64,000 nt of DNA, taken from Ahrensia sp. R2A130 (GTDB taxonomy: Bacteria; Pseudomonadota; Alphaproteobacteria; Rhizobiales; Rhizobiaceae). The notes under the pieces were generated by a model. It was not told the origin of the DNA. It saw only the letters and a program-made list of their open reading frames with translations, and ran no database searches. Shown here one piece after another: positions 7,947 through 63,883 of this stretch. Made by a program: the position numbers and the translations under genes. The DNA lies in contig NZ_AEEB01000022.1 in assembly GCF_000179775.1 (NCBI RefSeq), forward strand, positions 62,001-126,000, read 5' to 3'. Position 1 is the stretch's first letter. Each line of letters begins with the position of its first letter.

Positions 7947-8168
7947 TTAGATACCCAGACCACCGAACTTCTTGTTGAACTTCGACACGCGGCCATCGCG
8001 GTCGAGACCGGTACCGGTTCCACCGGTCCAAGCCGGGTGGGACAGAGGGTCGACGTCGAGGTTCATCGTGTCGCCTTCTTTACCCCAGGTGGAGCGGGTT
8101 TCGTATTGGGTGCCATCGGTCATAACAACTTTGATGGTGTGGTATTCTGGGTGAATATCGGCCTTCAT
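7947..8168 (-). CDS. rpmE: 50S ribosomal protein L31
   Basis: A 73-residue ribosomal protein of the large subunit. It starts [10 protein letters not shown] and contains [21 protein letters not shown] and the C-terminal [10 protein letters not shown], all typical of alphaproteobacterial L31. The zinc-ribbon cysteines of some L31 proteins are absent, so this is the Cys-free form. The ATG at 8168 was chosen over an in-frame start at 8333 because L31 always begins at this motif. A strong terminator follows at 7885-7919. It is divergent from the exporter gene at 8413; this order is common in Hyphomicrobiales. Confidence 0.95.
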
Positions 8169-8412
8169 GTCCGTATGCCTTAAATCTCTGCGCAACCATG
8201 GCAGCCTTCGGGCTTCCATGTGAAAACGACTGTTGAGGGAAGATGTCCGTACCGCGCCGACCATATGGTCCAAATGGCGCACAACGATCACCTTTGTTTT
8301 TAGTCGAGGAGGCTTTACATCGGGTTTAAGCATACGGCAAGCCGTGTGCAGCAGGCTTGCTTCACCCGCACGAAGCTGGCCCTACATTATTTACTGCCGG
8401 GAGCCGTATGAC

Positions 8413-10194
8413 GTGAGCGAAGAGACGCAGAAGGACCGCACGGGCCTGGCACCATTGCGCCATCTTGTACCTTATATAATGCGGTACCGCGGCCACCTGT
8501 TGGGCGCGTTGGTATTCCTGTTCATAGCAGCGCTCACCACGCTGTCGCTGCCGCTGGCCGTACGGTCTATGATCGACAACGGGTTCCTCAACGAAGACGC
8601 CGTTTTCGTGAACCAGTATTTCTACGCACTTTTTGCAATCGCTGCCCTGCTCGCGATCTCATCTTCCCTACGCTATTATTTCGTTATCTGGTTGGGTGAG
8701 CGTGTGGTGGCGGACCTTCGCAGTGATGTGTTTGCCCATATCACAACACTGTCGGCAGACTTTTTCGACACCGCCCGCACCGGCGAACTGGTGTCACGGC
8801 TGACGGCTGACACCACGCAAATCAAATCCGCTGCCGGAGCCACAGCTTCCATGGCATTGCGAAATGTCGTGCTGATTATCGGCGCGATTGCGGGCATGAT
8901 CTGGAGCTCGCCGTCACTGTCTCTCATTGTGTTGGCCGCGATTCCGCTGATCGTGCTGCCCATCTTCGCGTTTGGCCGCAACGTGCGAAAGAAATCCCGT
9001 TTCGCGCAGGACGAATTGGCCAATGCCACAGCTTTTGCTTCGGAAAGCATCTCGTCGGTCAAAACGCTTCAGGCCTTCACCAACGAAACGCTGACATCCA
9101 CCCGCTTTTCCGACGCCATCGAAAGCTCGTTTTCCGCTGCCCGCTCGTCGGTCGCAGCGCGCGCAACTCTGACGGCCTTCGCGATCTTCATGATCTTCAC
9201 CAGCGTCATTGGCGTGTTGTGGATTGGTGCTGGCGCTGTGCTGGAAGGTACGATGACGCCGGGCCTTTTGGGTCAGTTCCTTATTTTCTCGGTCATGGCT
9301 GCCGGTGCGCTGGGTGCCTTGTCAGAAGTCTGGGGAGAACTGTCGCAAGCCGCTGGTGCAGCAGAACGTCTATCCGAATTGCTGGCGACGGAACCGGTGA
9401 TAGCCGTACCGACCAACCCCGAAGCCTTGCCGGAACCAGCGCGCGGCGAACTGATCTTCGATCACGTCGCTTTCGCCTACCCCACACGTATGGACGACCC
9501 CGTGGTCAAAGACCTGTCGCTAGCCATCAAGGCCGGTGAAACCGTGGCCGTTGTCGGCTCGTCCGGCGCGGGCAAAAGTACGCTGTTCAATCTCGTGCTG
9601 CGCTACTACGACCCCACCGCTGGCAACATCACGCTGGATGGTGTCGATATTGCCCATGCAGACCCCGCAGCCTTGCGAAACCGCATTGCACTTGTTCCGC
9701 AGGACACCGTTATCTTCGCCACCACCGCGCGTGAAAATATACGCTTCGGGCGACCCGATGCATCTGATGCAGATGTTGAGAAAGCAGCGAAATTAGCGCT
9801 GGCTCACGACTTCATATCAGGAATGGCGGATGGCTATGACACAACCGTTGGCGAACGCGGCATCACATTGTCCGGCGGCCAGCGCCAACGCATGGCGATT
9901 GCCCGCGCCATTTTGAAAGACGCTCCATTGCTGCTGCTCGATGAGGCAACCAGCGCGTTGGATGCGGAGAGCGAAAAGCTGGTTCAGAAAGCGCTGGACG
10001 GCCTGATGGTCGACCGCACCACAGTCGTCATTGCCCACCGCCTCGCCACAGTTCTGAAGGCCGACCGTATCGTGGTCATGGACGCCGGAACGATTGTTGA
10101 AGAAGGCACCCATGCCGAACTCGTGAAGCGTGGCGGCATTTACGCCCGCCTCGCAAAGCTGCAATTCGAAACCGACTTCGCTTCCGTCGCCTAA
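8413..10194 (+). CDS. ABC exporter, fused permease-ATPase (MsbA/LmrA type)
   Basis: A 593-residue half-transporter that would act as a homodimer in the inner membrane. Six membrane helices occupy roughly residues 25-315, and the ATPase domain follows: Walker A GSSGAGKST near 380, signature LSGGQRQR near 485, Walker B LLLLDEATSALD near 505 and the switch His in IAHR. The GTG at 8413 is chosen because a GGGAG stretch lies about 10 bases upstream and family members begin close to the LRHLVPYIMRYR segment. The substrate is unknown; lipids or drugs are common for this group. A TPP enzyme gene follows after 21 bp. Confidence 0.88.
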   Translation: MSEETQKDRTGLAPLRHLVPYIMRYRGHLLGALVFLFIAALTTLSLPLAVRSMIDNGFLNEDAVFVNQYFYALFAIAALLAISSSLRYYFVIWLGERVVADLRSDVFAHITTLSADFFDTARTGELVSRLTADTTQIKSAAGATASMALRNVVLIIGAIAGMIWSSPSLSLIVLAAIPLIVLPIFAFGRNVRKKSRFAQDELANATAFASESISSVKTLQAFTNETLTSTRFSDAIESSFSAARSSVAARATLTAFAIFMIFTSVIGVLWIGAGAVLEGTMTPGLLGQFLIFSVMAAGALGALSEVWGELSQAAGAAERLSELLATEPVIAVPTNPEALPEPARGELIFDHVAFAYPTRMDDPVVKDLSLAIKAGETVAVVGSSGAGKSTLFNLVLRYYDPTAGNITLDGVDIAHADPAALRNRIALVPQDTVIFATTARENIRFGRPDASDADVEKAAKLALAHDFISGMADGYDTTVGERGITLSGGQRQRMAIARAILKDAPLLLLDEATSALDAESEKLVQKALDGLMVDRTTVVIAHRLATVLKADRIVVMDAGTIVEEGTHAELVKRGGIYARLAKLQFETDFASVA

Positions 10195-10215
10195 GCGGCA
10201 CCCAAAGGAAATATA

Positions 10216-11853
10216 ATGTCCGACTCCAATACCCGCACCACGGGCGCGGATATCATCGCGCGCAAACTGGCCGCCAGCGGCGCGGACCGCGCTTTTGGCA
10301 TTCCCGGTGGCGAGGTGTTAGCGCTGCTGGAAGCGTTGGAGCGGGCGGGCATTTCCTTCCACCTTGCAAAGCACGAAAACGCGGCGGGCTTTATGGCCGA
10401 GGGCGTTTGGCACGCAAAGCCTGAGGGCAACCGCGCTCCCGCCATTTTGCTGGCCACAGTTGGCCCCGGCGTGGCGAACGCGACAAACGTCATCGCCAAC
10501 GCGATGCAGGATCGAGTGCCGCTGATCTTCCTCACCGGCTGCATTGATGGTGCGGAAGCTGACACTTACACGCATCAGGTTTTCGACCACCAGCAAATGC
10601 TGCGTCCCATTGTGAAAGCCAGCTTCCGCGCCAATGCCGGTTCGCTCGATGCGGTTATGGACAAAGCGCTCACCATCGCTTTCGAAGGCCAACCCGGCCC
10701 GGTGCATATAGATGTGCCAATTGCGGTGGCAGAAAACGAAACAGACGAAATCGCCCGACCACTTCCGCCGATGGTATCGCCAGCCATGCAGCGTCCCGGA
10801 CCGGAGCTTGCCGAAATTCTGGAAGCTTTGAACGGCGCAGAACGCCCGCTGGTGATCGCAGGCGTCGATGCCGTGAACGATGGGGCGAGCGAGGCAATCA
10901 CCGCGCTTTGCCTCATGCACAACATCCCGATTGTGACCACCTACAAGGGTAAAGGCCTGCTGGATGAAAGCCATGAGCTTTCACTCGGCGGCCACGGCTT
11001 GTCGCCGAAATCCGACACGGTGGTTTTGCCGCTGGTGAAGCGCGCCGACGTTGTCATACTGGCAGGTTACGACCCCATCGAAATGCGCATCGGTTGGCGT
11101 GATCCGTTTGCCGATGATGCCAAGGTGATCGACGTCACGCCGCAGTTGCGGGACCACGGCGTTCACCGCGTTACCCACACTTTGCGCGGTTCCATCAGCG
11201 GCACGTTGGAACAGCTGTATGCCGCCATGGACGTGCGCCCCCGCTGGCCGAACGACGAAGCGGCAACGGCCCGCGCAGAATTGCAGGCCATGTTCACCGG
11301 CTTCAAAACCTGGGGACCGGGGCAAGCGTTCGAAATGCTTTCAGACATCCTGCCCGACGACACGGTGATGACAGCCGATGCCGGCGCGCACCGCATTCTG
11401 GTGTCGCAAGTCTGGCAATCCAAACAGCCCCACGCCGTGCTCCAATCCACCGCGCTGTGCACAATGGGTTGCGCCGTGCCGCTGGCCGCTGGCTTCAAAC
11501 TGGCAAACCCCGATGCGCCCGTCATCGCTTTCGTCGGCGACGCAGGAATGGAAATGGGCTTGGGCGAACTATCGACCCTGCGCGATCTGAAAACTCCCGT
11601 CATCATATGTGTGATGGTGGATGAAGAACTCGCGCTGATCGAAATCAAACAGCGCCGCAGCCAGCGTCCCAACGCAGGCGTCGAATTCTCCGGCACTGAC
11701 TTCCCGTCCGTCGCCCGCGCCATGGGTGGCGAAGGCTATTGGATCGACGATGCCGCCACGTTGGCCCAAGCCGCAACCGAAGCGTTGAAAAAAGACACGT
11801 TCACAGTGCTGGCCTGCCGTATCGGTCGCCATGCCTATGACGGGACGTTCTAG
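10216..11853 (+). CDS. Thiamine-diphosphate-dependent enzyme, acetolactate synthase-like
   Basis: A 545-residue enzyme with the three-domain layout of the acetolactate synthase/decarboxylase family: a pyrimidine-binding domain with the ylide-forming Glu54 in KHENAAGFMAEG, a central domain, and a diphosphate-binding domain. The Mg/ThDP motif, normally GDG followed some 25 residues later by NN, reads GDA at about 440 and then MVDEELALIEIKQ, so the canonical glycine and asparagines are replaced. This may mark an unusual subgroup or weakened cofactor binding. No small regulatory subunit gene (ilvN-like) is nearby, arguing against biosynthetic acetolactate synthase. It probably shares a transcript with the upstream exporter (gap 21 bp). 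The substrate cannot be assigned. Confidence 0.8.
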   Translation: MSDSNTRTTGADIIARKLAASGADRAFGIPGGEVLALLEALERAGISFHLAKHENAAGFMAEGVWHAKPEGNRAPAILLATVGPGVANATNVIANAMQDRVPLIFLTGCIDGAEADTYTHQVFDHQQMLRPIVKASFRANAGSLDAVMDKALTIAFEGQPGPVHIDVPIAVAENETDEIARPLPPMVSPAMQRPGPELAEILEALNGAERPLVIAGVDAVNDGASEAITALCLMHNIPIVTTYKGKGLLDESHELSLGGHGLSPKSDTVVLPLVKRADVVILAGYDPIEMRIGWRDPFADDAKVIDVTPQLRDHGVHRVTHTLRGSISGTLEQLYAAMDVRPRWPNDEAATARAELQAMFTGFKTWGPGQAFEMLSDILPDDTVMTADAGAHRILVSQVWQSKQPHAVLQSTALCTMGCAVPLAAGFKLANPDAPVIAFVGDAGMEMGLGELSTLRDLKTPVIICVMVDEELALIEIKQRRSQRPNAGVEFSGTDFPSVARAMGGEGYWIDDAATLAQAATEALKKDTFTVLACRIGRHAYDGTF

Positions 11854-37282: not shown

Positions 37283-38872
37283 ATGTCAAAAATATCACGC
37301 GTCGCCTTCACACTAGCCACCGCCGTGTCCGCTGCCGCAATGTCCGCAGCGATGACGTCATACGCCTCGGCGCAGACGTTCACATCTGCTGATACGCCGC
37401 TGAGAATACCGGCGTCTGGTTCAGCAGGCACGATTGTCACCACGATCAACGTCGCCTCCATGGGCATCATCAGCGATCTGAATGTCTCACTCGATGCGAC
37501 GCACAGCTTTTCCGCCGACCTTGATATCGAGCTTACTTCACCCAACGGAACGATAGTCACTTTAGCAAGAGATGACGGCAGCAACGGAGACTGGGCTGGT
37601 GTTTACACGTTTGATGATCAGGCAGCCGTTAGTTTCACCGCTGCTGTAAGTGACGCAGGAAACAATGTCGTAGTTGGCAGTTATCAAACCGATAGCGATG
37701 ACACGCAGGTGCTTGCTGACTTTAACGGCGAAGAAGCTGCTGGCGTATGGAGTCTGGAAATTGTGGATGATGCCGGTTCAGACTTTGGCCAGCTCAACCA
37801 ATGGCAGTTGATCTTCCTTTTCCAATTGATCGCCGATGGCGACCAGTCATTCCTTGCCGGTCCGGTCGCTAACGCAGCAGCCGATTTGTCATCAATGATA
37901 TTGGGTTCTCTCGCTGAACGCCGCTCTGCCTCGTTCGCTTCGCTGGCAGCTCCTGCCGCAGGCGATGATGGCACTTTCGGCTCGACATATGGTCTGACGA
38001 CCGATGTCAGCTCCGCAAACCCTTACATCAATGGCACGGGCGGAATGTTCCTGCGCGTTGGCGGCAGCGCAGTGAAAGAAGACGGCAACATCAGCGGTCT
38101 AACAGCCGCAACCGGCTTCGGCGAAGTTGATGGAACGATGGGCTTCATTCAGGCAGGTGTCGCAGGTCGGCTGACAGACCTTGCCTCTGGCCATATAGTT
38201 GCATCTCTTCAAGCGCATTACGCCACCGGCGACTACGATATCGAAGATGCAACCGGCGCAAAGCGCGGCAGTTTCGATCTGGACGGTTCCGGCGTTGGCA
38301 TCAGCATGACCTACATCGGAAACGAGGGTCTTGTCGCTGATCTGGCACTTCAGACAACTTTCTACGATGCCCGGGTGAAAACAGCGACCGGCGCAACCGG
38401 TACAACTGATATGCACTCGTTCTCGGTATCCGGTGAACTGGGCAAAGAGTTCGCCTTGTCAAACGGTTGGTCGCTCCTGCCGCATGTTCAACTGAGTGCG
38501 GTCCATGTGGACATTGACGACTTCACCGACAGCAGCGGCACAACGGTGTCCTACAGCAATAACACCCAAGTGGAGCTACAAGCCGGTACAGCTTTCATTT
38601 ATCGCGGCGTTTTCGATAACGGTGCGCGCTACGTTGCGGACGTAAAAACGCAAGTGGCTCACACCTTCGACAACGATGTCGATTTCGCCGTAGCAGGCGT
38701 CGGGCAGAGCTTCGATTCAAGCGGAACAGACGGTATCATCTCTGCTGGTTTTTCTGTTGCACAAGGAACATCCCCCTGGTCAGTTGGTGCAAAAGGCCAA
38801 TACCGCTTTGCGCTTGATGGCGACGACAGCCAAGCTCTCTCCGGCAGCATCTCCCTCGGCTACGCGTTTTAA
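37283..38872 (+). CDS. Outer-membrane protein: P/Homo B-type domain plus autotransporter-like beta-barrel
   Basis: A 529-residue protein with a Sec signal (1-30, ending ASA). Residues about 35-178 match the proprotein convertase P-domain: the core SADLDIELTSPNGTIVTLARDDG, then WSLEIVDDAGSDFGQLNQWQLIF. No subtilisin or metallo-protease domain is attached, although P-domains usually sit behind one. From about residue 240 to the end the protein shows alternating strands and closes with GSISLGYAF, ending in the aromatic residue that directs barrel insertion, as in autotransporter beta-domains. It is probably displayed on the outer membrane. It lies between the binding-protein and permease genes of the peptide-type ABC system. 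Its role is unknown: adhesion or ligand capture are possible. Confidence 0.75.
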   Translation: MSKISRVAFTLATAVSAAAMSAAMTSYASAQTFTSADTPLRIPASGSAGTIVTTINVASMGIISDLNVSLDATHSFSADLDIELTSPNGTIVTLARDDGSNGDWAGVYTFDDQAAVSFTAAVSDAGNNVVVGSYQTDSDDTQVLADFNGEEAAGVWSLEIVDDAGSDFGQLNQWQLIFLFQLIADGDQSFLAGPVANAAADLSSMILGSLAERRSASFASLAAPAAGDDGTFGSTYGLTTDVSSANPYINGTGGMFLRVGGSAVKEDGNISGLTAATGFGEVDGTMGFIQAGVAGRLTDLASGHIVASLQAHYATGDYDIEDATGAKRGSFDLDGSGVGISMTYIGNEGLVADLALQTTFYDARVKTATGATGTTDMHSFSVSGELGKEFALSNGWSLLPHVQLSAVHVDIDDFTDSSGTTVSYSNNTQVELQAGTAFIYRGVFDNGARYVADVKTQVAHTFDNDVDFAVAGVGQSFDSSGTDGIISAGFSVAQGTSPWSVGAKGQYRFALDGDDSQALSGSISLGYAF

Positions 38873-50065: not shown

Positions 50066-52861
50066 CTACTCCGCAGCCTCGCGCATCACTGCCCGCTCCA
50101 CTTTCGCAGCACAGAATTTGAACTCGGGGATTTTTCCATACGGGTCCAACATCGGGTTGGTCAGCGCGTTGGCGGGGGCTTCGTTGAAGCAGAAGGGGAT
50201 GAAGATCATCCCGTCGGCCACTTCGCGGTCGGCCCGCAGCAGCGCTTCGATGGTGCCGCGACGGGTGGAAACGGTGATCATATCGCCCGCTTCCATGCCC
50301 AATTTGTCGATCTGGCGCGGGTTCATGGCAGCAAAGCCTTCCGGCTCGATATCATCCAGCACGTTGGCGCGGCGCGTCATGGCGCCGGTGTGCCAATGTT
50401 CCAACACGCGACCGGTGGTCAGCACCATGGGGAAGTCGGCGTCCGGAACCTCGTCAGGCGCGCGCAAATCAGCAGGCACGATGCGACCACGACCGTCTTC
50501 CGTCGGGAAGCCTTGGTCGAAAACGACCCATTTTTGCGTGCCATCGGGAAGCGACGGGTAGGTGACGCTCTCGTTCGCTTCGAGCCGCTCCCACGGAATG
50601 TAGTCGAGCGATTTCATAACCTGCCGCATCTCTTCGTAGACGTCCGGCGCACCGTTTTCGTAAGTCCAATCGAGACCGCAACGGTTGGCAAGATCGATGA
50701 GAATATCGAGATCGAGCCGTGCATCGCCCGGCAACGGAAGCGCGGGACGACCGATCTGCACCTGGCGGTTGGTGTTGGAAAATGTGCCGAGCTTTTCCGC
50801 ATGCGCCGAAGCGGGCAGCACGACATCAGCATGCCAGCAGGTCTCGGTCAGGAAGATATCCTGCACAACCAGATGGTCGAGTTTCGCCAACGCACCACGG
50901 GCGTGGTGCTGGTCGGGATCGGACATGGCCGGGTTTTCGCCCATGATATACATGCCGGAAATTTCGTCCGCGTGGATCGCATCAACGATCTCTACCACCG
51001 TGAGGCCCTTCTTCGGATCGAGCGCACGGCCCCAGAAATCTTCCATGCCGCCGCGAATGTCACCGTTTTCAACCGACCGATAATCGGGGAAGAACATGGG
51101 GATGAGACCGGCGTCGGACGCACCCTGCACGTTGTTCTGCCCACGCAGCGGGTGAAGACCGGTGCCCGCGCGACCGACATGACCGGTGATGAGCGCCAGC
51201 GCGATGAGGCAACGGGAATTGTCGGTACCGTGGGTGTGCTGGGAAATACCCATACCCCAGAAGATCATGGAGCGTTCCGACGTGGCATAGAGGCGGGCGA
51301 CGGCGCGCAGCGTATCAGCATCGATACCGCAGACATCCGACATTTCTTCTGGTGAAAAGTCTTTCACCTTCTCGCGCAAAGCCTCGAAACCATCCGCGTT
51401 CGCCTGAATATATTGCTCGTCGTAGAGTTCTTCGTCGATGATCGTGTGGATCATCGCGTTCAACATGGCGACATCGGTGCCGGGTTTGAAGCGCAGCGAA
51501 TGTTCTGCATGGCGCATCAAATCCTGCCCGCGCGGGTCCATGACCACGAGCTTCGTACCGTCTTTCACAGCACGCTTGAAATAGGTCGCGGCGACAGGAT
51601 GGTTGGTCGCGGGGCGCGCGCCGATGACAATGACGCAATCGGCCTTACCCGCATCCATGAACGGAGCGGACACCGCGCCGGAGCCCACGCCTTCCAGCAG
51701 CGCGGAAACGGAGGATGCGTGGCACAGCCGGGTGCAGTGATCGACATTATTGGTGCCAAAACCCTGACGGATAAATTTCTGGAAGAGATAGGCCTCTTCG
51801 TTCGAGCCCTTGGCCGAGCCGAACCCAGCCAGCGCACCGCCGCCGCGTTCGTCACGAATTTTCGTCAGGCCGGAAGCCGCAAGCGTAAGCGCTTCTTCCC
51901 ATGTCGCTTCGCGGAAAATGTCGGAGACCTCCATGAACCGCATGTCGATGTCGCCAGCCTTTGGCGCATCGTCGCGGCGGATGAGAGGCGTCGTAAGGCG
52001 TTCTTTCGACATGGCGTAGTCGTAGCCGAAGCGACCCTTCACGCAGAGACGGTTCTCGTTGGCGGGGCCATCGCGACCATCGACCAGCACGATTTTCTCG
52101 TCCTTAGTATAAACGGTTGTCTGGCAGCCAACACCGCAGAACGGGCAAACGCTATCCGTCTTAGCGTCGAAGTCTTCGATGACGCGGGTGCGGTTGTCGG
52201 CATCCATCAACGTCTTTTCAAACAGCGCGCCGGTTGGGCAGGCTTGGACGCATTCACCACATGTCACACAGGTGGAAACGCCCATCGGGTCGTGAATATC
52301 GAACACCGGCACAGAGTGGTGGCCACGGTCGGCCATGCCCAACACGTCGTTCACCTGGACTTCGCGGCAGGCGCGCACGCACAAGTTGCACGCGATGCAA
52401 GCGTCCATGTTCACCGCGATGGCGGGGTTGGAGGCGTCGTGCAGAGGCGACAGGGTGATTGCCGCGCCATTGTCGGCATGTTTCGACGGCAAACGACCGC
52501 CTTCGATGGAGAACTCGCCCAGCCAATCGTGGAACGAAGACTTCGCGTCCACCGCTTGCTCCGGCATGTCGGCCAGCAACAATTCGAACACCATACGGCG
52601 GGACTTATCAGCGCGTTCCGTGTCGGTCTTCACGACCATGCCGTCTGAGACCTTGCGCTTGCACGATGCAGCCAGCACCCGCTCGCCCTCGATTTCCACC
52701 ATGCAGGCACGGCAGTTGCCATCAGCGCGATAGCCGGGCTGGTCGAGATGGCAAAGATGCGGAATCCGCGTGCCTTCCCGCTTGGCGACGGTCCAGATGG
52801 ACTCATTAGGAGAAGCTGTGACGTCAACGCCGTCGAGATTGAAAGTGATCTGATCGGTCAT
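50066..52861 (-). CDS. fdsA: Formate dehydrogenase alpha subunit (FdsA, molybdopterin)
   Basis: The 931-residue catalytic subunit of a soluble NAD-type formate dehydrogenase, oxidising formate to CO2 at a bis-MGD centre. The N-terminal [2Fe-2S] domain has cysteines 37, 50, 53 and 67, followed by CIACNLCVRAC and CVTCGECVQACP [4Fe-4S] clusters, then the CPFCGVGC motif that binds the proximal cluster. The Mo ligand is a Cys, not selenocysteine, in TRLCHASSV. The molybdopterin dinucleotide-binding domain is at the end. The ATG at 52861 is one base after the stop of the upstream Spy-like gene (TGA-G-ATG), so an in-frame start at 52894 is less likely. fdhD, needed for sulfuration, is not in the window. 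Confidence 0.95.
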   Translation of the reverse strand: MTDQITFNLDGVDVTASPNESIWTVAKREGTRIPHLCHLDQPGYRADGNCRACMVEIEGERVLAASCKRKVSDGMVVKTDTERADKSRRMVFELLLADMPEQAVDAKSSFHDWLGEFSIEGGRLPSKHADNGAAITLSPLHDASNPAIAVNMDACIACNLCVRACREVQVNDVLGMADRGHHSVPVFDIHDPMGVSTCVTCGECVQACPTGALFEKTLMDADNRTRVIEDFDAKTDSVCPFCGVGCQTTVYTKDEKIVLVDGRDGPANENRLCVKGRFGYDYAMSKERLTTPLIRRDDAPKAGDIDMRFMEVSDIFREATWEEALTLAASGLTKIRDERGGGALAGFGSAKGSNEEAYLFQKFIRQGFGTNNVDHCTRLCHASSVSALLEGVGSGAVSAPFMDAGKADCVIVIGARPATNHPVAATYFKRAVKDGTKLVVMDPRGQDLMRHAEHSLRFKPGTDVAMLNAMIHTIIDEELYDEQYIQANADGFEALREKVKDFSPEEMSDVCGIDADTLRAVARLYATSERSMIFWGMGISQHTHGTDNSRCLIALALITGHVGRAGTGLHPLRGQNNVQGASDAGLIPMFFPDYRSVENGDIRGGMEDFWGRALDPKKGLTVVEIVDAIHADEISGMYIMGENPAMSDPDQHHARGALAKLDHLVVQDIFLTETCWHADVVLPASAHAEKLGTFSNTNRQVQIGRPALPLPGDARLDLDILIDLANRCGLDWTYENGAPDVYEEMRQVMKSLDYIPWERLEANESVTYPSLPDGTQKWVVFDQGFPTEDGRGRIVPADLRAPDEVPDADFPMVLTTGRVLEHWHTGAMTRRANVLDDIEPEGFAAMNPRQIDKLGMEAGDMITVSTRRGTIEALLRADREVADGMIFIPFCFNEAPANALTNPMLDPYGKIPEFKFCAAKVERAVMREAAE

Positions 52862-52862
52862 C

Positions 52863-53423
52863 TCAATGGCCTCCATGTCCACCGGCATAGCCACGCAACT
52901 GCGCGTAGCGGGCCTTCTGTGTCTCGTTCAACACAGGCGTTACCTCCAAATGGGTCGCCAGATGGACAGACCTGAGTTGCGCGCGAACCTGTTCGGTGCG
53001 GGAGAGCAGATCGTCCAGCGAAGCACGGTCGATGGTGTTCTCGCGAAATGCCGTATCCAATGCCAGTTCTGCATCAATTAACGCAGCACCCAACTGCTTG
53101 GCGCGCACTTGCATGGCGGCAAAGGCGGCATCGATGCTCTGCCGCTGACTTGTAGTCAGGTCCAGCTTGTCGGCAAATTCGATGATGTGGGCGGGTCCGG
53201 GATAACCGTTAAACTCCGCAGGTTTCGCAAGCCCCCAACCCGCACCGGCGCGAAGCTGCTCTATGTCCTTGGACGACAGGCTCGTCACCGCCCGCTCCTG
53301 TTGCCCCGCATAGGGAGCGGAGGACTTGGCTGCATGGCGCAAAATTTCGGGTCCGTAGAAACCAGCGGCCCCGCCGATGGCAAGACAGACAGCGGCAGTC
53401 AGTGCGATCGCGATCTTCATCAC
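52863..53423 (-). CDS. Spy/CpxP-like periplasmic protein inside the formate dehydrogenase operon
   Basis: A 186-residue predicted periplasmic protein: residues 1-22 form a signal anchor (KIAIALTAAVCLAIGGAAG), and the rest is helical with a LTTSQRQSIDAAFAAMQVRAKQLGAALIDAELALDTAF stretch (about 92-130), like the LTxxQ family of metal-sensing and chaperone proteins (Spy, CpxP, ZraP). The tail GYAGGHGGH is histidine-rich and could bind metal. It overlaps the FdsGB stop by 4 bp (53420-53423) and sits 1 bp before fdsA, so it is co-translated with the enzyme subunits. Since the enzyme is cytosolic, the reason is unclear. Confidence 0.75.
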   Translation of the reverse strand: MMKIAIALTAAVCLAIGGAAGFYGPEILRHAAKSSAPYAGQQERAVTSLSSKDIEQLRAGAGWGLAKPAEFNGYPGPAHIIEFADKLDLTTSQRQSIDAAFAAMQVRAKQLGAALIDAELALDTAFRENTIDRASLDDLLSRTEQVRAQLRSVHLATHLEVTPVLNETQKARYAQLRGYAGGHGGH

Positions 53424-55132
53424 AAATCCTTCCGGAAATGGGTGAGCAAGTGGTTCACAGGGTTGGGTGCAGCTTGGCCGAGGCCGCAGATGGAAGCGTC
53501 GCGCATGACGTCTTCGAGATCGCGGATTGCGGTCTCGTCCAACGCATCACCCCCATTTGACGAAGCGCGCAACAGCTTGCCCATTTTTTCGGTTCCGCCA
53601 CGGCATGGTGTGCATTGGCCACAGGACTCGTGGGTGAAGAAGTCAATGAGATTGAGCGTTGCATCTTTCATGGAGTCCGCGTCTGAAAACACGACAACCG
53701 CATGCGAGCCGACAAAGGCACCAAGCGTGGCGAGTTCACCACCGAAATCCAGTGGCACATCGCCCTTATCTGCTGGCAGAATTCCGCCGGACGCCCCACC
53801 CGGCAGGTAGGCTTTGAAGGTCTGGACTGACCCATCTTCTTTGGCAGCCATGCCGCCGCACATCTCGATCAATTCGTTGACCGTGGAACCGGCAGGCGCT
53901 TTCACCACGCCGGGGTTCGCAACGCGACCGGAGACGGAATAGCTGCGCATGCCGGGATGGTCGGGCTTGCCCTGGCTAGTAAACCATTCGACGCCGTTCG
54001 CCAGAATTTCCGGCACCCAATACAGCGTCTCGACATTGTTGTTCAGCGTCGGGCGACCGAACAGGCCCGCTTCGGCGATGTAAGGTGGGCGATGGCGCGG
54101 CAGGCCGCGTTTGCCTTCGATGCTTTCCAGCATCGCGCTCTCTTCGCCGCAAATATACGCACCCGCACCGCGCCGCATTTCGATGAAACCGGGGGGGGCC
54201 AAGCCAGCCGCTTCGATGTCGGCGATGCACTCGGCCATGACTTTGATCGCGGCGGGATATTCGTCGCGCATGTAGAGATAGATGCGCTCGGCCTCGACGC
54301 AGTGTGCACCGATGAGCGCGCCCTCGAACATCGCGTGGGGATTCCGCTCCATGTAGAAACGGTCCTTGAACGTGCCGGGTTCGCCTTCATCCGCGTTGAT
54401 GGTCATCAGGCGCGGGCCTTCATAGCCGCGCACGAAACCCCATTTTTTGCCGGTGGGAAAACCCGCACCGCCCATGCCGCGCAGTGATGCGTCGGACAGG
54501 GTTTCGATCACAGCGTCAGCATTCGTGCCACCATCGCGCAGCTTTTCATATTGCCCGTAGCCACCTTCAGCGCGGTAGGCGGCGAGGTCTTTATAGTCGG
54601 GTGTGAGGACGCCGATCTCACCGCTTTCGACCATCGCAAGTAATCCATCGACTGTGGCGTTGCCAACCTCACGGTCACCGATACGGGCGGCGGGAGCGAC
54701 ATCGCATGCGCCCATGCACGGGGCGTGGACCACACGAACGGCGTTGCGGTCGATACCGGTTTCGAGACCAGCATGAAGCGCTTCAGCGCCCATCATCATA
54801 CAGGTGATGGAATCGCACACTCGAATGGTGAGCGGCGCGGGCTCGGGCTCACCCTCCTTCACCACATCGAAATGATCGTAGAAAGAGGCGACCTCATAGA
54901 CTTCCACCTGCGATAGACGCATCTCTTCGGCCAGCGCACGGATGTGGGCTGCGGACAGGCATTTATACTCATCCTGAATGAGGTGCAGATATTCGATCAG
55001 ATGGTCGCGTTGGATTTTACGGTCGCCCAGCAGCGCGCGAACATTGGCCAATGCACCATCGTCCAACTGGCGGCCTTTCGGCAGCGCCGGATTGCGGCGT
55101 TTGGATCTACCTTGATCGGGGCGGTCGAGCAT
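53420..55132 (-). CDS. fdsB: Fused gamma-beta formate dehydrogenase subunit (FdsG-FdsB)
   Basis: A 570-residue fusion of the two electron-transfer subunits. Residues about 15-165 are FdsG/NuoE-like (YKCLSAAHIRALAE, VYEVASFYDHFD, VCDSITC, PCMGACDVAP: four [2Fe-2S] cysteines). From about 215 on it is FdsB/NuoF-like: RGMGGAGFPTGKKWGF and NADEGEPGTFKDR bind FMN and NAD, GAGAYICGEESAMLESIEGKRG follows, and ESCGQCTPCRGG with a later Cys in ICGLGQ holds the [4Fe-4S] cluster. It passes electrons from FdsA to NAD. GGAGGGAACCCC before the ATG at 55132 is a strong ribosome site; a start at 55225 is unlikely. Confidence 0.93.
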   Translation of the reverse strand: MLDRPDQGRSKRRNPALPKGRQLDDGALANVRALLGDRKIQRDHLIEYLHLIQDEYKCLSAAHIRALAEEMRLSQVEVYEVASFYDHFDVVKEGEPEPAPLTIRVCDSITCMMMGAEALHAGLETGIDRNAVRVVHAPCMGACDVAPAARIGDREVGNATVDGLLAMVESGEIGVLTPDYKDLAAYRAEGGYGQYEKLRDGGTNADAVIETLSDASLRGMGGAGFPTGKKWGFVRGYEGPRLMTINADEGEPGTFKDRFYMERNPHAMFEGALIGAHCVEAERIYLYMRDEYPAAIKVMAECIADIEAAGLAPPGFIEMRRGAGAYICGEESAMLESIEGKRGLPRHRPPYIAEAGLFGRPTLNNNVETLYWVPEILANGVEWFTSQGKPDHPGMRSYSVSGRVANPGVVKAPAGSTVNELIEMCGGMAAKEDGSVQTFKAYLPGGASGGILPADKGDVPLDFGGELATLGAFVGSHAVVVFSDADSMKDATLNLIDFFTHESCGQCTPCRGGTEKMGKLLRASSNGGDALDETAIRDLEDVMRDASICGLGQAAPNPVNHLLTHFRKDL

Positions 55133-55337
55133 GGGGTTCCCTCCGGCGCGACCTGTGCGGGGCCGCAAATGCATGTGCTGAGATTTGGTGACACGCTGTC
55201 CGAATGCGTGGACTGGGGCGTCCACCGGCTCAACGGTCGGCCGGGAACCCTGTCCGGCAAATCGACATTAGCAAATGCGTGCGGCGATGCAATTCAAATG
55301 ACGACCAACAGTCGTCGCACCGGCGAGCCAGTTCGGC

Positions 55338-56787: not shown

Positions 56788-57519
56788 ATGATCGAGTTCC
56801 TCACCCATCATGCATTGGCATCGAACTGGAAAGTTTGGGAGCAATGCCTGGAACTGAGGAAAATGGGTGCGCAGCATCGCGGCACATCGCTTGGACAAAT
56901 GGAACGAACATCTTCGCCGGGCGATTCCAGCGACAATGAGCTGGCAGTTCATGTGGTTCAGTGGTACGATGGCGGGGAAATCATCGGCTATGCCAGAATG
57001 TACCCCCGCCCTAATCGAGGAAATTTCAATTCCTCACGTCCCAGCATGCGGATGGAGCTGGAGCGGGTATGTTTCGCGTCAGCTTTCGATGCTTCCGCAA
57101 CACCACCGTGCGATGACCTACGCAAGCTTATCACAGCATGCATAGGTTACGCCCGGTCTCATGATTATGATGTCATCAGCGGGTATGGCGAAGCTGATGG
57201 CGTGGCAGCATTGAGCGACTTAGGCATCGTAGTACAGACGACCGACACAGGCATTACTGACGGTATCGACGACAGCACGCGAACGCTCTACCGCTACGAC
57301 CTTATCGCAGATGACAAAAACAGCCGTGTCCTGTCATATCCGGCCAACGAGGATGCTAAAGCGCAGCTCGAAACGCAGCGTAACCGGTCTGCATGGCAGG
57401 CCAGAAGCACAGGCGATGGCCACGATGTGCTGGAAGAGCTGGAAGCGATGTTTGGCGTGGACATGACCGCATGCCGCAAGACCTTCGAAAGCGAAAACCT
57501 CACCTTGGAAGCTGTCTAG
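56788..57519 (+). CDS. LuxI-like autoinducer synthase candidate
   Basis: A 243-residue GNAT-fold protein resembling acyl-homoserine-lactone synthases. Matches to conserved LuxI positions are Arg24 in LELRKMG, Asp49 before the VHVVQWYDGGEIIGYARMYP core (residues 54-73, with Arg70), and MELERV (Glu90, Arg93) in place of the ELSRF motif. Trp34 and one of the two acidic residues are not obvious, and the C-terminal 80 residues are extra to LuxI. The tail-to-tail LuxR gene supports a signalling role. AAGGAGTACCCC before the ATG at 56788 is excellent. It could instead be a GNAT acyltransferase with another product. Confidence 0.6.
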   Translation: MIEFLTHHALASNWKVWEQCLELRKMGAQHRGTSLGQMERTSSPGDSSDNELAVHVVQWYDGGEIIGYARMYPRPNRGNFNSSRPSMRMELERVCFASAFDASATPPCDDLRKLITACIGYARSHDYDVISGYGEADGVAALSDLGIVVQTTDTGITDGIDDSTRTLYRYDLIADDKNSRVLSYPANEDAKAQLETQRNRSAWQARSTGDGHDVLEELEAMFGVDMTACRKTFESENLTLEAV

Positions 57520-58238
57520 CTGAGAAGCCCCAAGCGCAATGCTTTCGCAACCGCGTGAACGCGGTTTACCGCTTCCAGTTTCTTGCATGCGAGCGCAAGG
57601 TAATGCGTCACGGTATGATCCGATAATTCAAGATCACGGGCGGTTTCCTTAGACGTCTTACCCAAAGCAGCATGAGACAGACAATCCATCTCACGACCTG
57701 AAAGCGACGGCATTTCGGAGCGGGTAACCGAGGTGGCCGAAATCTGCACGAGGTGGTCGTACAGATAATTCGACAGCAAATGCAGCATGGCACCATCATC
57801 AGGGTTCAGGACGAGTTCATTGCCGGAAAAGACAAGGCCACCACGATTGCCCTTACCATCATTAACCGGACAACACGCGCCATATTTCATATCGAAATCG
57901 TTGAACAGTTCACGCGCCAACGCTGCGCTTTCAGGCGCACGCTCCTGCAACATTGTATCCATATCATAGGTCATCACCCGATTGCCCGTCTCAAAATGCC
58001 CTAGAACTGGCGAGGCTTTGGACAGACCGTTTTCATCATAAACGGCAATAAGTTCGGGGTCCCAATTGTTGACGACGCCAAGGTCCGAGATCGCGCTGGT
58101 TTGCTTGTCGAGCGTCAAGATGGAGAATCGGCTAGCACCAAAGTCGTTGCCTAAACGGCGCGCATATCGAAACACATCATAGGCTGTCTCAAGGCGGGAT
58201 ATCTCATCAACATAATCAGTCAGTTTATTGGCGAGCAT
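57516..58238 (-). CDS. LuxR-type regulator with autoinducer-binding domain
   Basis: A 240-residue DNA-binding regulator. Residues about 15-165 fit the autoinducer-binding domain (RFSILTLDKQTSAISDL, NNWDPELIAVYDENG, then ASPVLGH), and the last 65 are the LuxR helix-turn-helix: LSGREMDCLSHAALGKTSKETARDLELSDHTVTHYL, ending NRVHAVAKAL. The ligand-contacting D-P pair of TraR/LuxR reads S-P here (ASPV), so its ligand may differ from standard acyl-homoserine lactones. The ATG at 58238 is preferred over 58286. The stop shares CTAG with the LuxI-like stop, so the genes converge. A dyad lies upstream at 58281-58299. Confidence 0.85.
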   Translation of the reverse strand: MLANKLTDYVDEISRLETAYDVFRYARRLGNDFGASRFSILTLDKQTSAISDLGVVNNWDPELIAVYDENGLSKASPVLGHFETGNRVMTYDMDTMLQERAPESAALARELFNDFDMKYGACCPVNDGKGNRGGLVFSGNELVLNPDDGAMLHLLSNYLYDHLVQISATSVTRSEMPSLSGREMDCLSHAALGKTSKETARDLELSDHTVTHYLALACKKLEAVNRVHAVAKALRLGLLS

Positions 58239-58280
58239 GGTGTTTCGACCTTCCAATGAAAAGGTTTTACCCGCCCGGTA

Positions 58281-58299
58281 ATACAACTTTTAGTTGCAT
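58281..58299. promoter_or_regulatory. Dyad upstream of the luxR-type gene, possible autoregulatory site
   Basis: ATACAACT-TTT-AGTTGCAT has 8-bp arms with one mismatch, 43-61 bp upstream of the minus-strand start. Its length and symmetry resemble LuxR-type operators, although the sequence is not a standard lux box. Two further dyads, ACCTTT-ATC-AAAGGT (58328-58342) and a bulged TTCCCAC...GTGGGGAA (about 58351-58372), lie between it and the divergent PAS gene. Confidence 0.45.
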
Positions 58300-58442
58300 A
58301 TTTAGTCTTACCAACTCGTTAACAGCCACCTTTATCAAAGGTTAAGCGGCTTCCCACCGATTGTGGGGAATTGCGGAATTGGGCCTGCGCGTCAGATTGA
58401 GAGCAAGACGAAAAGATCATTTAACGAACAGGAATGCCCGCC

Positions 58443-58937
58443 ATGCAAAGTGTCGCCGACGTCGAATTTGGCATGGAATCGATCAACGACATCCTCAATC
58501 TCGACTTCCGTGAGCGAGCGCGTAATCCGCAAATGATCGACGACATCGATGTCTCCGGCGCAGAGCTGCTGAACATCCTCTCGGCTTTCGACAATTACGG
58601 AATGTGGCGGCTTGATATTGAAACGTCACAGGTCTCGTGGAGCGAAGACGTTTTCCGTATCCACGAACTGCCCCAGGTAGATGGGCCTGTAGATCTTGAA
58701 GCGGCAATTTCCCGCTACCACCCCGAAGACCAGCAGTACCTTCCGCAGGTCATTGAAGAGGCCATTACACGCAAAAGCGCGTTCCGATTCGTACTTCGGC
58801 TCAAGCGTGCCTACAGCGGATATAAACTTGTGAAATCGACCGGCAAATTTCGCCACAGGCCGGGCTGTGCGCCGGAAATGATCGGCACATTTTCAGAGTT
58901 CCAACCGGCCAACAGAGCGATTGCTTCCATCGGCTAG
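58443..58937 (+). CDS. PAS-domain protein
   Basis: A 164-residue cytosolic protein that consists of an N-terminal helix and one PAS fold (about residues 50-150: YGMWRLDIETSQVSWSEDVFRIHEL near 52-76 and FRFVLRLKRAYSGYKLVKSTGKFRHR near 113-138). No output domain is attached, so it probably acts through a partner or as a single-domain sensor. The ATG at 58443 is chosen because ACAGGA lies 10 bases upstream; the ATG at 58434 abuts that site. It is divergent from luxR-type gene and precedes the PAS/GGDEF/EAL gene by 59 bp, whose own PAS domain is similar in wording (GSWSYDPETEAVQWSSEISAIYG). Confidence 0.78.
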   Translation: MQSVADVEFGMESINDILNLDFRERARNPQMIDDIDVSGAELLNILSAFDNYGMWRLDIETSQVSWSEDVFRIHELPQVDGPVDLEAAISRYHPEDQQYLPQVIEEAITRKSAFRFVLRLKRAYSGYKLVKSTGKFRHRPGCAPEMIGTFSEFQPANRAIASIG

Positions 58938-58996
58938 CGCCCACGCCAACAGCACCGCCTCATAAAGATATCTCAGCTCGGCACGGAGCCAACCCG

Positions 58997-60760
58997 ATGA
59001 CACACGATAAAGACCAGCAGCAAGATCAATTGGCCAACACAGTGGGCGCAATGATGGGGGTCGGTTCTTGGTCCTACGATCCCGAAACGGAAGCGGTGCA
59101 ATGGTCGTCCGAAATATCAGCGATCTACGGCACGAAGCCGGACGAACCAGTCACCCTTGAACTCACGCTGGCGCCCTTTCCTGAAGACGCCAAAGCCGCG
59201 CTGACAACAACGATGGAACGCGCGATTGCTGAAAACCGGCGCTACGAACTCATTTTGCCTTTTGATGTGCAGGGCAAGCGCAAATGGGTGCGTTCCGTTG
59301 GTTGTCCGGAGTGCCGAGATGGCGAGAATTTGCAGCTGTTTGGGACGTTGGAGGACGTAACAGAGACGGTGCTTCAGCAGCGCCAGGTTGAACGAAAAGC
59401 CTACCATGACCCGCTCACCGGCCTGCCCAACGAACATGGTATGAACCGCAAACTTAAGCACTTCATTGATGAGCAACAGGCGTGCGACGGGCAGCCAAAA
59501 ACACAAATTGTGTGCGTTCTGGAATTGCTTATCGCACCGGGAACATCACCAAACGAGATCGACACGATCCAGCGAACGTTTGCCAGCGCAATTCGCCAGC
59601 GTGGCGGATTTGCAGCCCGCTTCAATGACGGTCGGTTCATGCTGATTATCGAGGAACCTGAAGGCGTAGATGCTTCAGAAATCGTTCTCCATCACATCAC
59701 GACCCTTTCACGCCTCCGCCGCGCCGACGGCATTGTCATGACCATGCAGATACGCTGCGGCTGGCTACGGCTGGATGGCAACCGGACGAGCACCACTGAC
59801 ATAACGGACGATCTTGAACTGACCCTGCGCACCGCACGCACCCATGCCGGTGCAAGCGTGGTGTCCTACTCACCGGCTTTGAGGGAAAACGAGAAACGAC
59901 GCGCCAAGGTCGCCAAACAGTTTCAGGATGCCTTGGAAAACGGCGAAGTCGTCCCCTACTACCATCCGATCATTTGCCTCGACAGCGGTAAGCTTTCAGG
60001 CTTCGAAGCCTTTGCCCGCTGGAACCATCCCACACGTGGGCTGATCGCGCCAAACCTGTTCATGCAGGTGTTCGACGATTCCGCAATTTGCGTGCGCTTG
60101 TCCCACGTGATCATGGAAAAAATCGCTAACGACATGGCGACGTGGCATCGTCAGGGCCTGCACTTCGGAAGCGTTGGTATCAACGTCACGGCACTTGATC
60201 TGCAACAGGACCAGTTTTCACAACGCACTTTGGCATTGCTGGAAGATCGTGGTCTCTCACCACGCCACCTGATGCTTGAGGTCGGGGAAGCCGTAATGTT
60301 GCAAACGCCCTCTCCCGAAGTAACCGACCACATCAACCGCCTGCGGGAAGCCGGCGTGTTGATCGCGATCGACGACTACGGGACGCATGCGGCATCGCTT
60401 CAGCAACTGAAGAATGTGCCGTGCGACATCATGAAAATCGACCGGTCATTTATCGGCAATATGACCGTGTCCCCCAAGGATCGTTCCATCGTCAGCGCAT
60501 TGATCCAAATGTCCAAGGACTTCGGTTACAGTACGGTGGCACAGGGCATTGAAACCCGCGAAGAAGCTGCACAACTGGCAGCAATGGGTTGTAGCCGTGG
60601 CCAAGGTTTCTTCTACGCCAAGCCCGCGCCCGCAGAAGCGGTGAGCAAAACCATGGTGACCGTTTTCGACCGCACCACGTTGCGTCAGAAAATCGAAGCT
60701 GCGCCAGAGCTCGCACCAAGCCCAAGCGCACGGGACAGGGCGCGCCTTATTTCAGGCTAA
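58997..60760 (+). CDS. PAS-GGDEF-EAL protein with degenerate motifs
   Basis: A 587-residue cytosolic signalling protein. PAS is at about residues 20-120. The GGDEF domain follows (HDPLTGLPN 137-145), but its active-site motif reads RFNDGRF (208-214), so cyclase activity is not expected. The EAL domain begins at EAF (337-339) and keeps N396, E428, D459/D460, K480 and Q536, while the usual AEGVET motif reads AQGIET (Q516), so phosphodiesterase activity may be lost or altered. It may bind c-di-GMP without turning it over. No membrane helix is seen. Its position beside the LuxI/LuxR pair suggests a tie to density sensing, by inference. Confidence 0.88.
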   Translation: MTHDKDQQQDQLANTVGAMMGVGSWSYDPETEAVQWSSEISAIYGTKPDEPVTLELTLAPFPEDAKAALTTTMERAIAENRRYELILPFDVQGKRKWVRSVGCPECRDGENLQLFGTLEDVTETVLQQRQVERKAYHDPLTGLPNEHGMNRKLKHFIDEQQACDGQPKTQIVCVLELLIAPGTSPNEIDTIQRTFASAIRQRGGFAARFNDGRFMLIIEEPEGVDASEIVLHHITTLSRLRRADGIVMTMQIRCGWLRLDGNRTSTTDITDDLELTLRTARTHAGASVVSYSPALRENEKRRAKVAKQFQDALENGEVVPYYHPIICLDSGKLSGFEAFARWNHPTRGLIAPNLFMQVFDDSAICVRLSHVIMEKIANDMATWHRQGLHFGSVGINVTALDLQQDQFSQRTLALLEDRGLSPRHLMLEVGEAVMLQTPSPEVTDHINRLREAGVLIAIDDYGTHAASLQQLKNVPCDIMKIDRSFIGNMTVSPKDRSIVSALIQMSKDFGYSTVAQGIETREEAAQLAAMGCSRGQGFFYAKPAPAEAVSKTMVTVFDRTTLRQKIEAAPELAPSPSARDRARLISG

Positions 60761-60841: not shown

Positions 60842-61768
60842 ATGACGGAACCGACCCAGCCGGGCTTTGAAATTCGCGACCCGCGTTTTCACGACATCAT
60901 CGCGCCCGAAGCAAAACTCGAACGTCTGGCCACAGGCTTCGTCTTCACAGAAGGCCCCATCTGGCACGAGCGGGAGGGCTATGCTCTCTTTTCGGATATA
61001 GCCGCCAGCGTTCAATATCGCTGGAGTGAAGTAGACGGAGTGTCTGTCTTCCGCCGTCCATCCAATCAGGCCAATGGTAACTGCTTCGATAGACAAGGCC
61101 GCGTCATTACCTGCGAACACGCAGCGTCCCAAGTCATCCGGCACGACCACGAAGGCAAGCTCATTGCGCCCATTGCCACCCATTTTGATGGTCGCGAGTT
61201 GAACTCCCCGAACGACGTCATCTGCGACAGCAAGGGACGGATCTGGTTCACCGATCCTTCGTTCGGGCGGCAGCGCCCTGAACTGGGCATTGTGCGCGAG
61301 GAAGAGCAGGCCTGCCGCGGCGTCTATCGGCTGGACCCCGATGGTGCGTTGCACCTTGTCACCGATGACTTCGAGCAGCCGAACGGCCTGTGCCTGTCGA
61401 ACGACGAGACCACGCTTTTTATCAACGATTCCGCCCGCCCTTGCATACGATCTTTTGCCGTAAACGAAGACGGCACGCTCACCGGTGACGAGGTTTGGGC
61501 AGACGTAACCGGTGGCATCGTTCTTGGCGGAACGCGCAAATGGGTGCCCGATGGCATGAAGGTCGACATAGACGGTAACCTGTTCTGCAATGGCCCCGGT
61601 GGCGTACATATCTTCACCGCCGATGCCGACTGTCTCGGTGTTATTTTGATGCCGGAGAAATCGACCAACTTCTGTTTTTCGGGCAAGGCGTTAGACGCGC
61701 TCATCATCACCGCGTCCACCGGACTTTATCGCATCAGAACTAAAACGCGTGCCAAGCAGGTGATGTAA
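60842..61768 (+). CDS. SMP-30/gluconolactonase-family lactonase
   Basis: A 308-residue six-bladed propeller enzyme of the SGL family. Metal-binding and lactonase motifs are ATGFVFTEGPIWH (metal Glu) near residues 30-42, the RPSNQANGNCFDRQGRVITCEH segment near 72-93, LNSPNDVICDSKGRIWFTDPSFG near 120-142 (Asn and Asp), and EQPNGLCLSNDETTLFINDS near 180-200. No signal peptide is present. Family members hydrolyse sugar lactones such as gluconolactone; it could feed the gluconate genes at 3904-6624, but they are 54 kb away. It stands alone between the EAL gene and amn. Confidence 0.88.
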   Translation: MTEPTQPGFEIRDPRFHDIIAPEAKLERLATGFVFTEGPIWHEREGYALFSDIAASVQYRWSEVDGVSVFRRPSNQANGNCFDRQGRVITCEHAASQVIRHDHEGKLIAPIATHFDGRELNSPNDVICDSKGRIWFTDPSFGRQRPELGIVREEEQACRGVYRLDPDGALHLVTDDFEQPNGLCLSNDETTLFINDSARPCIRSFAVNEDGTLTGDEVWADVTGGIVLGGTRKWVPDGMKVDIDGNLFCNGPGGVHIFTADADCLGVILMPEKSTNFCFSGKALDALIITASTGLYRIRTKTRAKQVM

Positions 61769-63399: not shown

Positions 63400-63636
63400 C
63401 TAGATTTCGTTTGGGCGCAAACCTGCTTGAGACAGCGAAGTTTCCGCCCCCAACAATTCGCGCAAATAGGCAATCACCCGCTCGGCATCCGTCGGGTGGC
63501 TGAACATGTCCATCGGTCGGCGATCATCAAAAACCCGCCAAGGATGCCGCAACCACTTGGCCGCGCCATCTTCGCCAAATGCGCTGATGGCGTATGCCGT
63601 GATGGTGTCGAGAAGATCATTCTGTCCGGTCGTCAT
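63400..63636 (-). CDS. MbcA/ParS/Xre antitoxin-type (DUF2384) small protein
   Basis: A 78-residue protein with the toxin-binding domain seen at the C-terminus of RES/Xre antitoxins: AFGEDGAAKWLRHPWRVFDDRRPMDMFSHP then AERVIAYLREL. The N-terminal helix-turn-helix of a full antitoxin is missing, so it is the domain alone. No RES-type toxin gene is next to it on either side. The ATG at 63636 is preferred to 63675. An orphan or domesticated antitoxin is likely; a partner elsewhere cannot be excluded. Confidence 0.72.
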   Translation of the reverse strand: MTTGQNDLLDTITAYAISAFGEDGAAKWLRHPWRVFDDRRPMDMFSHPTDAERVIAYLRELLGAETSLSQAGLRPNEI

Positions 63637-63883
63637 AGCCACACACTCCGCACTCGCTGATACATTGCACAACATGGCGATTCTGCCGGAGCGTCAATTG
63701 AATTTGAAGTATCCACAGGGGCTGTGAATGACGCATTGAGCGAAAGCTGAATGACTCGAACGGGATAGCGTTTGAATTTTTTTTGCAAGAACCCACCGCA
63801 TCCAACGTTGCAGAGAATTAATTTTGCAGGAACTCTCCATGCGACTTACGCTCAGAACATAAAACCACAGCGTGAGTGAACCG

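Follow-up and report, generated by a model that had tools for sequence, protein, structure and literature searches.

A conserved gene pair, encoding a LuxR-type regulator (P0001) and a small stand-alone PAS protein (P0002), lies in a stretch of 64,000 nucleotides from Ahrensia sp. R2A130. This stretch, here called the window, covers positions 62001-126000 of one contig in a genome of 3.73 Mb (59 contigs, 94.9% complete). Tail to tail with the luxR gene stands the gene for a third protein, P0004, which, judging from its sequence, is best named a divergent LuxI-superfamily acyltransferase and not LuxI. The favoured reading, at a probability of about 0.4, is a LuxR-PAS solo pair with a private acyltransferase, P0004, possibly making an N-acyl signal other than a homoserine lactone (HSL). 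A first-pass annotation had placed these three genes and that of a PAS-GGDEF-EAL protein (P0003) at 56788-60760, and all four open reading frames (ORFs) are present there.

A conserved LuxR-PAS pair

P0001 (240 aa; 57516-58238, minus strand) contains both the autoinducer-binding domain (PF03472, 1.4e-13) and the GerE helix-turn-helix domain (PF00196, 8.3e-12) of the LuxR-type regulators, and P0002 (167 aa; 58434-58937, plus strand) has a Pfam match to PF08447 at 3.6e-6. The pairing of the two genes is real. At 23 loci in 22 genomes a P0002-like PAS gene and a P0001-like luxR gene are no more than 600 bp apart, and 22 of these pairs are arranged in tandem, luxR then PAS; in the same-genus genome G013 the pair is divergent, as in the window. 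The pair-bearing loci belong to Oricola, Ahrensia, Zhengella, Hoeflea and their relatives. Scanning genome contigs for a PAS motif gave 23 loci, and in each of them luxR immediately precedes the PAS gene on the same strand. This share is biased upward, since the query was a single peptide motif built on 17 PAS proteins, of which 16 or more had been taken from beside luxR. Seven of the scanned loci lie on contigs already in the other genome set, and some genomes are common to both.

Not every member of the wider PAS family has a luxR partner. In a family sample, a PAS match at 1e-8 is present in 37 of 199 genomes, and 30 of the 49 listed places, the window's own included, were examined for luxR. 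Besides the window's own, luxR is adjacent at 18 of the 29 loci and absent beside 11, where a LuxR-family profile likewise finds none; three of the unpaired loci (L096-L098) sit in frames of 329-1246 residues. Searches of the open-access literature, with subscription papers outside their scope, listed no title or abstract that describes a LuxR-PAS pair. Nor does the accessible part of PMC10134790 name a LuxR partnered by a small PAS protein.

The ligand site of P0001 sets its lineage apart from ordinary receptors. The residues listed for LuxR proteins responsive to N-acyl-HSLs (AHLs), in the same accessible part of PMC10134790, are W57, Y61, D70, P71, W85 and G113. At these TraR positions P0001 retains Y61, P71 and G113, while W57 is replaced by L63, D70 by S76 and W85 by Y91, so that its six residues are not those of an AHL-responsive LuxR. 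The D-P pair thus reads S76-P77, just as the first-pass annotation had it. At the D70 position S occurs in 16 and C in 7 of the 23 PAS-linked LuxRs, whereas D is kept by 21 of 22 LuxRs of the order that are linked to LuxI; at W57 all 23 have L, F or Y, as against W in 19 of the 22 (one control row, L035, looks misaligned and is counted all the same). W85 is kept in 19 of the 23 and is Y in the window's LuxR and in G013. Since S or C stands at D70 in every one of the 23, the S-P of P0001 is a lineage trait. These residue losses suggest a LuxR solo lineage that is unlikely to read ordinary acyl-HSLs.

As PMC10134790 defines it, in the part available, a LuxR solo has no PF00765 gene within four genes on either side, and P0001 is such a PF03472 protein without a nearby PF00765. 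Among NCBIfam models its best is VisR, with 71.1 bits against a cut-off of 300, and VisN gives 32.9 against 250; P0001 was therefore rejected as a VisN/VisR protein.

P0004, a divergent acyltransferase of the LuxI superfamily

The P0004 gene (243 aa; 56788-57519, plus strand) begins with ATG, six bases after the end of an AAGGAG sequence. It is convergent with luxR; both genes end in TAG, and their overlapping stop codons have the CTAG at 57516-57519 in common. The Pfam LuxI model PF00765 gives no match to P0004 at E values up to 1, so that membership of LuxI by the curated model is lacking. The description 'LuxI-like' holds up beyond chance all the same: the single P0004 protein, compared with 25 of the order's LuxI proteins, has an hhalign score of 43.9, and the maximum among 216 controls (150 shuffles and 66 other neighbourhood proteins) is 22.6. 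The alignment covers residues 1-150 of P0004. PF00765 is present in 25 of the 61 genomes of the relatives search and finds nothing anywhere in the source genome, at its 94.9% completeness, which leaves P0004 as the only LuxI-like candidate seen there.

The columns conserved in LuxI divide in two. P0004 retains the LuxI core residues R24, D46, D49, R70, E90(101) and R93(104), and has A, S and P in place of F28, W34 and E44, which are conserved in 21, 25 and 24 of the 25 LuxI proteins, respectively. The earlier statement that several conserved residues are replaced is correct for these three columns, with the core intact beside them. No F, W or Y occurs anywhere in residues 25-48, and the span from R70 to E90 is 20 residues, against 26-31 in the LuxI proteins. 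Eleven columns are conserved in 23 or more of the 25 proteins, and P0004 matches nine of them, missing W34 and E44; among 200 shuffles the best was eight, reached once, and none reached nine.

Comparison with related families places P0004 at a distance from LuxI. Left out in turn, the 25 LuxI proteins score 143-328 on the LuxI profile. P0004 scores higher against LuxI (43.9) than against a FeeM set (27.6) or a set of Acetyltransf_5 proteins (26.3), which we take to be acyltransferases of the OlsB type. In this comparison two of 33 rows (L164 and L179) were left out, and the FeeM set is mixed, because its model matches L163 and L166 score as LuxI proteins (205 and 176).

The predicted structure agrees with a GNAT fold. 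A single-sequence AlphaFold2 model was discarded for its poor mean predicted local distance difference test score (pLDDT, 45.7); the model built with LuxI rows reached 72.4 and leans to the LuxI fold for that reason. AHL synthases are among its top matches, with Z scores of 17.1 for TofI (root-mean-square deviation (rmsd) 2.6, 154 residues aligned) and 16.5 for LasI (3.3, 168), tied with the ordinary GNAT proteins ElaA (16.4; 2.2, 143) and SACOL1063 (16.1; 2.2, 140). Foldseek ranks SACOL1063 first, so the fold search gives no separation of P0004 from ordinary GNATs. About 60 C-terminal residues extend past the part alignable to GNAT structures. A profile score above controls, the common core residues and the GNAT fold together indicate that P0004 belongs, if distantly, to the LuxI/FeeM/OlsB acyltransferase superfamily and is not a random ORF.

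The same genome encodes, outside the window, a FeeM-model protein of the N-acyl amino acid synthase type (L156, C38:267009-267476, E 1.1e-27). It is another possible acyl-signal enzyme, and its score against LuxI is at noise level (13.1).

Explanations for the locus

Under the favoured reading, P0004 would be an active N-acyltransferase using acyl-acyl carrier protein or acyl-coenzyme A, as the intact R-D-D-R-E-R core suggests. Its acceptor would probably not be S-adenosylmethionine (SAM), or SAM would be bound in an unusual way, and its product would be some N-acyl compound that is not a standard AHL. P0001, with a pocket devoid of the usual HSL contacts, would bind this product or another non-AHL ligand and control the luxR/PAS region and possibly P0004, while P0002 may act as a soluble sensor, binding P0001 and giving it a further input. 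Taken as a complete private circuit, in which a LuxI relative no longer using SAM makes a non-HSL N-acyl signal, the LuxR reads it and the PAS protein acts as second sensor or gatekeeper, the scheme is unlikely. The non-standard signal proposed by the first-pass annotation is plausible in that P0004 and P0001 both lack typical features of AHL enzymes and receptors. The part that falls away is the tie between them: PAS-linked relatives carry the same LuxR changes with no LuxI found nearby, so these changes are not tied to the P0004 gene.

Several observations weigh against a role for P0004 with the pair. P0004 is without another match at E 0.001 in 61 relatives or in sets of 397, 385 and 398 genomes (the sets overlap, and that of 398 comprises genomes of the phylum), and searches of plasmids and phages gave none. 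Genome contigs and viral contigs were scanned by pattern, which finds close relatives only, and no relative turned up. Nothing therefore shows selection on P0004 or its pairing with LuxR. No P0004-like or LuxI-like frame stands beside any of the 23 scanned pairs, in flanks of at most 6 kb that are shorter where a contig ends, and no LuxI was found beside the PAS-luxR loci of the other genome set; the divergent pair of G013 has, where the LuxI-like gene would be, a 122-aa ORF unrelated to it. Upstream of P0004 there is only an 8-bp palindrome, GCAATTGC, and no long dyad. Most FeeM-model and Acetyltransf_5 proteins have the same core residues and lack W34, so this core marks the superfamily and not AHL synthesis. 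Furthermore, 19 Acetyltransf_5 proteins score 28.3-59.1 on the LuxI profile and bracket P0004, which is thus no nearer to LuxI than they are; neither core nor score predicts its product.

Weak matches to P0004, at E 0.001-0.01, came from five of the 397 genomes (L002-L006) and one of the 385 (L068). L003, L005 and L006 were rejected as relatives because their alignments are off-frame or due to chance, and L002 and L068 because they overlie other genes or contain stops; L004 is a short match inside a 707-aa frame.

Because no P0004 was found beside any other pair, it is nearly as likely that P0004 is a chance neighbour. The LuxR-PAS pair would then be a self-contained solo reading an external or intracellular non-AHL cue, with the EAL gene another mere neighbour and P0004 either a LuxI relative in decay or some unrelated acyltransferase of the GNAT type. 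The loss of F28, W34 and E44 fits such an account, as do the pairs of the motif scan and of G013 that stand without a LuxI-like gene and the want of P0004 relatives in the searched genomes. Chance placement is nevertheless an uneasy explanation for a LuxI-superfamily gene that converges on luxR with overlapping stops, and decay would erode the six intact core positions, the open frame of 243 codons and the good ribosome-binding site. It is improbable, as a further alternative, that P0004 does make acyl-HSLs, through an atypical SAM pocket, and that P0001, for all its changed residues, is the receptor for them. The retained core, the higher score against LuxI than against the other two families and the Y61, P71 and G113 of P0001 speak for that proposal. 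It must contend with the R70-E90 span, shorter than in any of the 25 LuxI proteins, and with the loss of W57 and D70 common to all 23 PAS-linked relatives. P0004 also lacks the F and W of the AHL synthase active site, which are F27/W33 in LasI and F28/W34 in TraI according to Table 1 of PMC9654057; PMC5539150 gives the same conserved positions, both sources being available in part.

The remaining proposal, a four-gene module tying the signal to cyclic di-GMP (c-di-GMP) through P0003, was that of the first-pass annotation and is likewise improbable. P0003 (587 aa; 58997-60760, plus strand) follows the PAS gene on the same strand after a gap of 59 bp. Its GGDEF domain (5.1e-6) has NDGRF where an active cyclase has GG(D/E)EF and is degenerate, as had been said. 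The EAL domain (6e-64), included in that description, is nearly complete: EAL reads EAF and AEGVE reads AQGIE, and most of what we assume to be the metal and catalytic residues are kept, by eye, in the alignments. Its closest relative is 33% identical. The module could draw on the proximity and shared strand of the PAS and EAL genes, on a truncated EAL protein 3' of the LuxR of G013 and on VisR being the best NCBIfam model of P0001, far below its cut-off. Against it, the only match to P0003 in the 23 motif-scan loci is that of its PAS stretch to the PAS gene, and a P0001-like frame occurs in none of 24 loci of P0003 relatives (flanks of about 1.5 kb). At E 1e-5 the EAL protein of G013 matches nothing in the genome of the window and is therefore not the counterpart of P0003. 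A comparison of gene co-occurrence leaves luxR and PAS conserved together, P0004 without a relative in the genomes covered and P0003 out of synteny, a neighbour of the LuxR-PAS pair and not a conserved member of it. The presence of PAS in both P0002 and P0003, on which the link had leaned, means little: the best other match to P0002 in its own genome is within a 1471-aa frame on another contig, and the PAS domain of P0003 falls short of E 1e-8 in that comparison. A c-di-GMP link at the locus is possible, and conservation gives it no backing.

Between the divergent luxR and PAS gene starts lie 195 bp (58239-58433) with one imperfect 21-bp palindrome (two mismatches; 0.38 expected in shuffles), which is not common to the relatives whose upstream regions were compared. 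The upstream region of G013 has one palindrome with one mismatch. Palindromes in the examined upstream regions are few and mutually unlike, and the longest word common to the P0004 and luxR-PAS upstream regions is nine bases. The G+C contents of P0004 (0.546), luxR (0.515) and PAS (0.542) are low against a value of 0.586 (standard deviation 0.023) for 48 window ORFs, which hints weakly at a shared history.

Directly 3' of the EAL gene, at 60842-61768 on the plus strand, is a gene for an SMP-30/gluconolactonase family protein (PF08450, 1.3e-48), a lactonase-type family near a LuxI-like gene that is possibly unrelated to it. In G013, positions 7974-10683 of the locus (L057) cover the divergent pair with the 122-aa ORF and the truncated EAL protein after luxR; one flank carries an L25-family ribosomal protein gene and the other what is presumably prs. 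Elsewhere in the window, a 529-aa protein with a proprotein convertase P-domain, an autotransporter beta-domain and low G+C at third codon positions is encoded at 37283-38872 (plus strand), and a 91-aa protein with an Xre/MbcA/ParS antitoxin C-terminal domain at 63400-63675 (minus strand). Domain matches at 50066-55225 (minus strand) are to a molybdopterin oxidoreductase with Fe-S domains, a NuoF-like subunit and a small metal-resistance-type protein, a set that we take to be an NAD-linked formate dehydrogenase.

Comparison with known systems

Many LuxR solos are without a known ligand, and the LuxR-PAS pair, with its loss of W57 and D70, defines a class that can be tested. The single pair seen next to a LuxI-superfamily enzyme opens a direct way to the ligand of its LuxR. 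A product of P0004 other than an AHL would bring a new chemistry into signalling of the LuxI/LuxR type, and an inert P0004 would still leave the pair as a clear type of solo.

P0001 is like the LuxR solos of the Rhizobiaceae, among them NurR, VisN/VisR and the subgroups in the accessible part of PMC10134790, in combining PF03472 and PF00196 where no neighbouring PF00765 gene was found. NurR of S. meliloti, linked to quorum sensing in the available part of PMC9120067, is 37% identical to it over 97%. The setting of NurR differs, since it adjoins a second LuxR and no PAS gene is entered there in the incomplete table of PLSDB.

P0004 resembles the LuxI synthases (PF00765; structures of TofI, LasI, EsaI, RpaI, BjaI and MesI) in its GNAT fold, its six core residues and the convergence of its gene with luxR. 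Unlike them, it lacks F28, W34 and E44, has a shorter R70-E90 span and a C-terminal extension, and falls outside the Pfam model and the LuxI score range. With the FeeM N-acyl amino acid synthases (PF21926) and Acetyltransf_5 (PF13444) it shares the R-D-D-R-E-R core and the absence of W34 that most of them display, although it scores lower against both than against LuxI. In convergent luxI/luxR pairs of the EsaI/EsaR type, the genes lie tail to tail with overlapping ends, and both synthase and receptor are canonical. P0004 and luxR have the same tail-to-tail overlap, joining in this arrangement an enzyme and a regulator that are not canonical.

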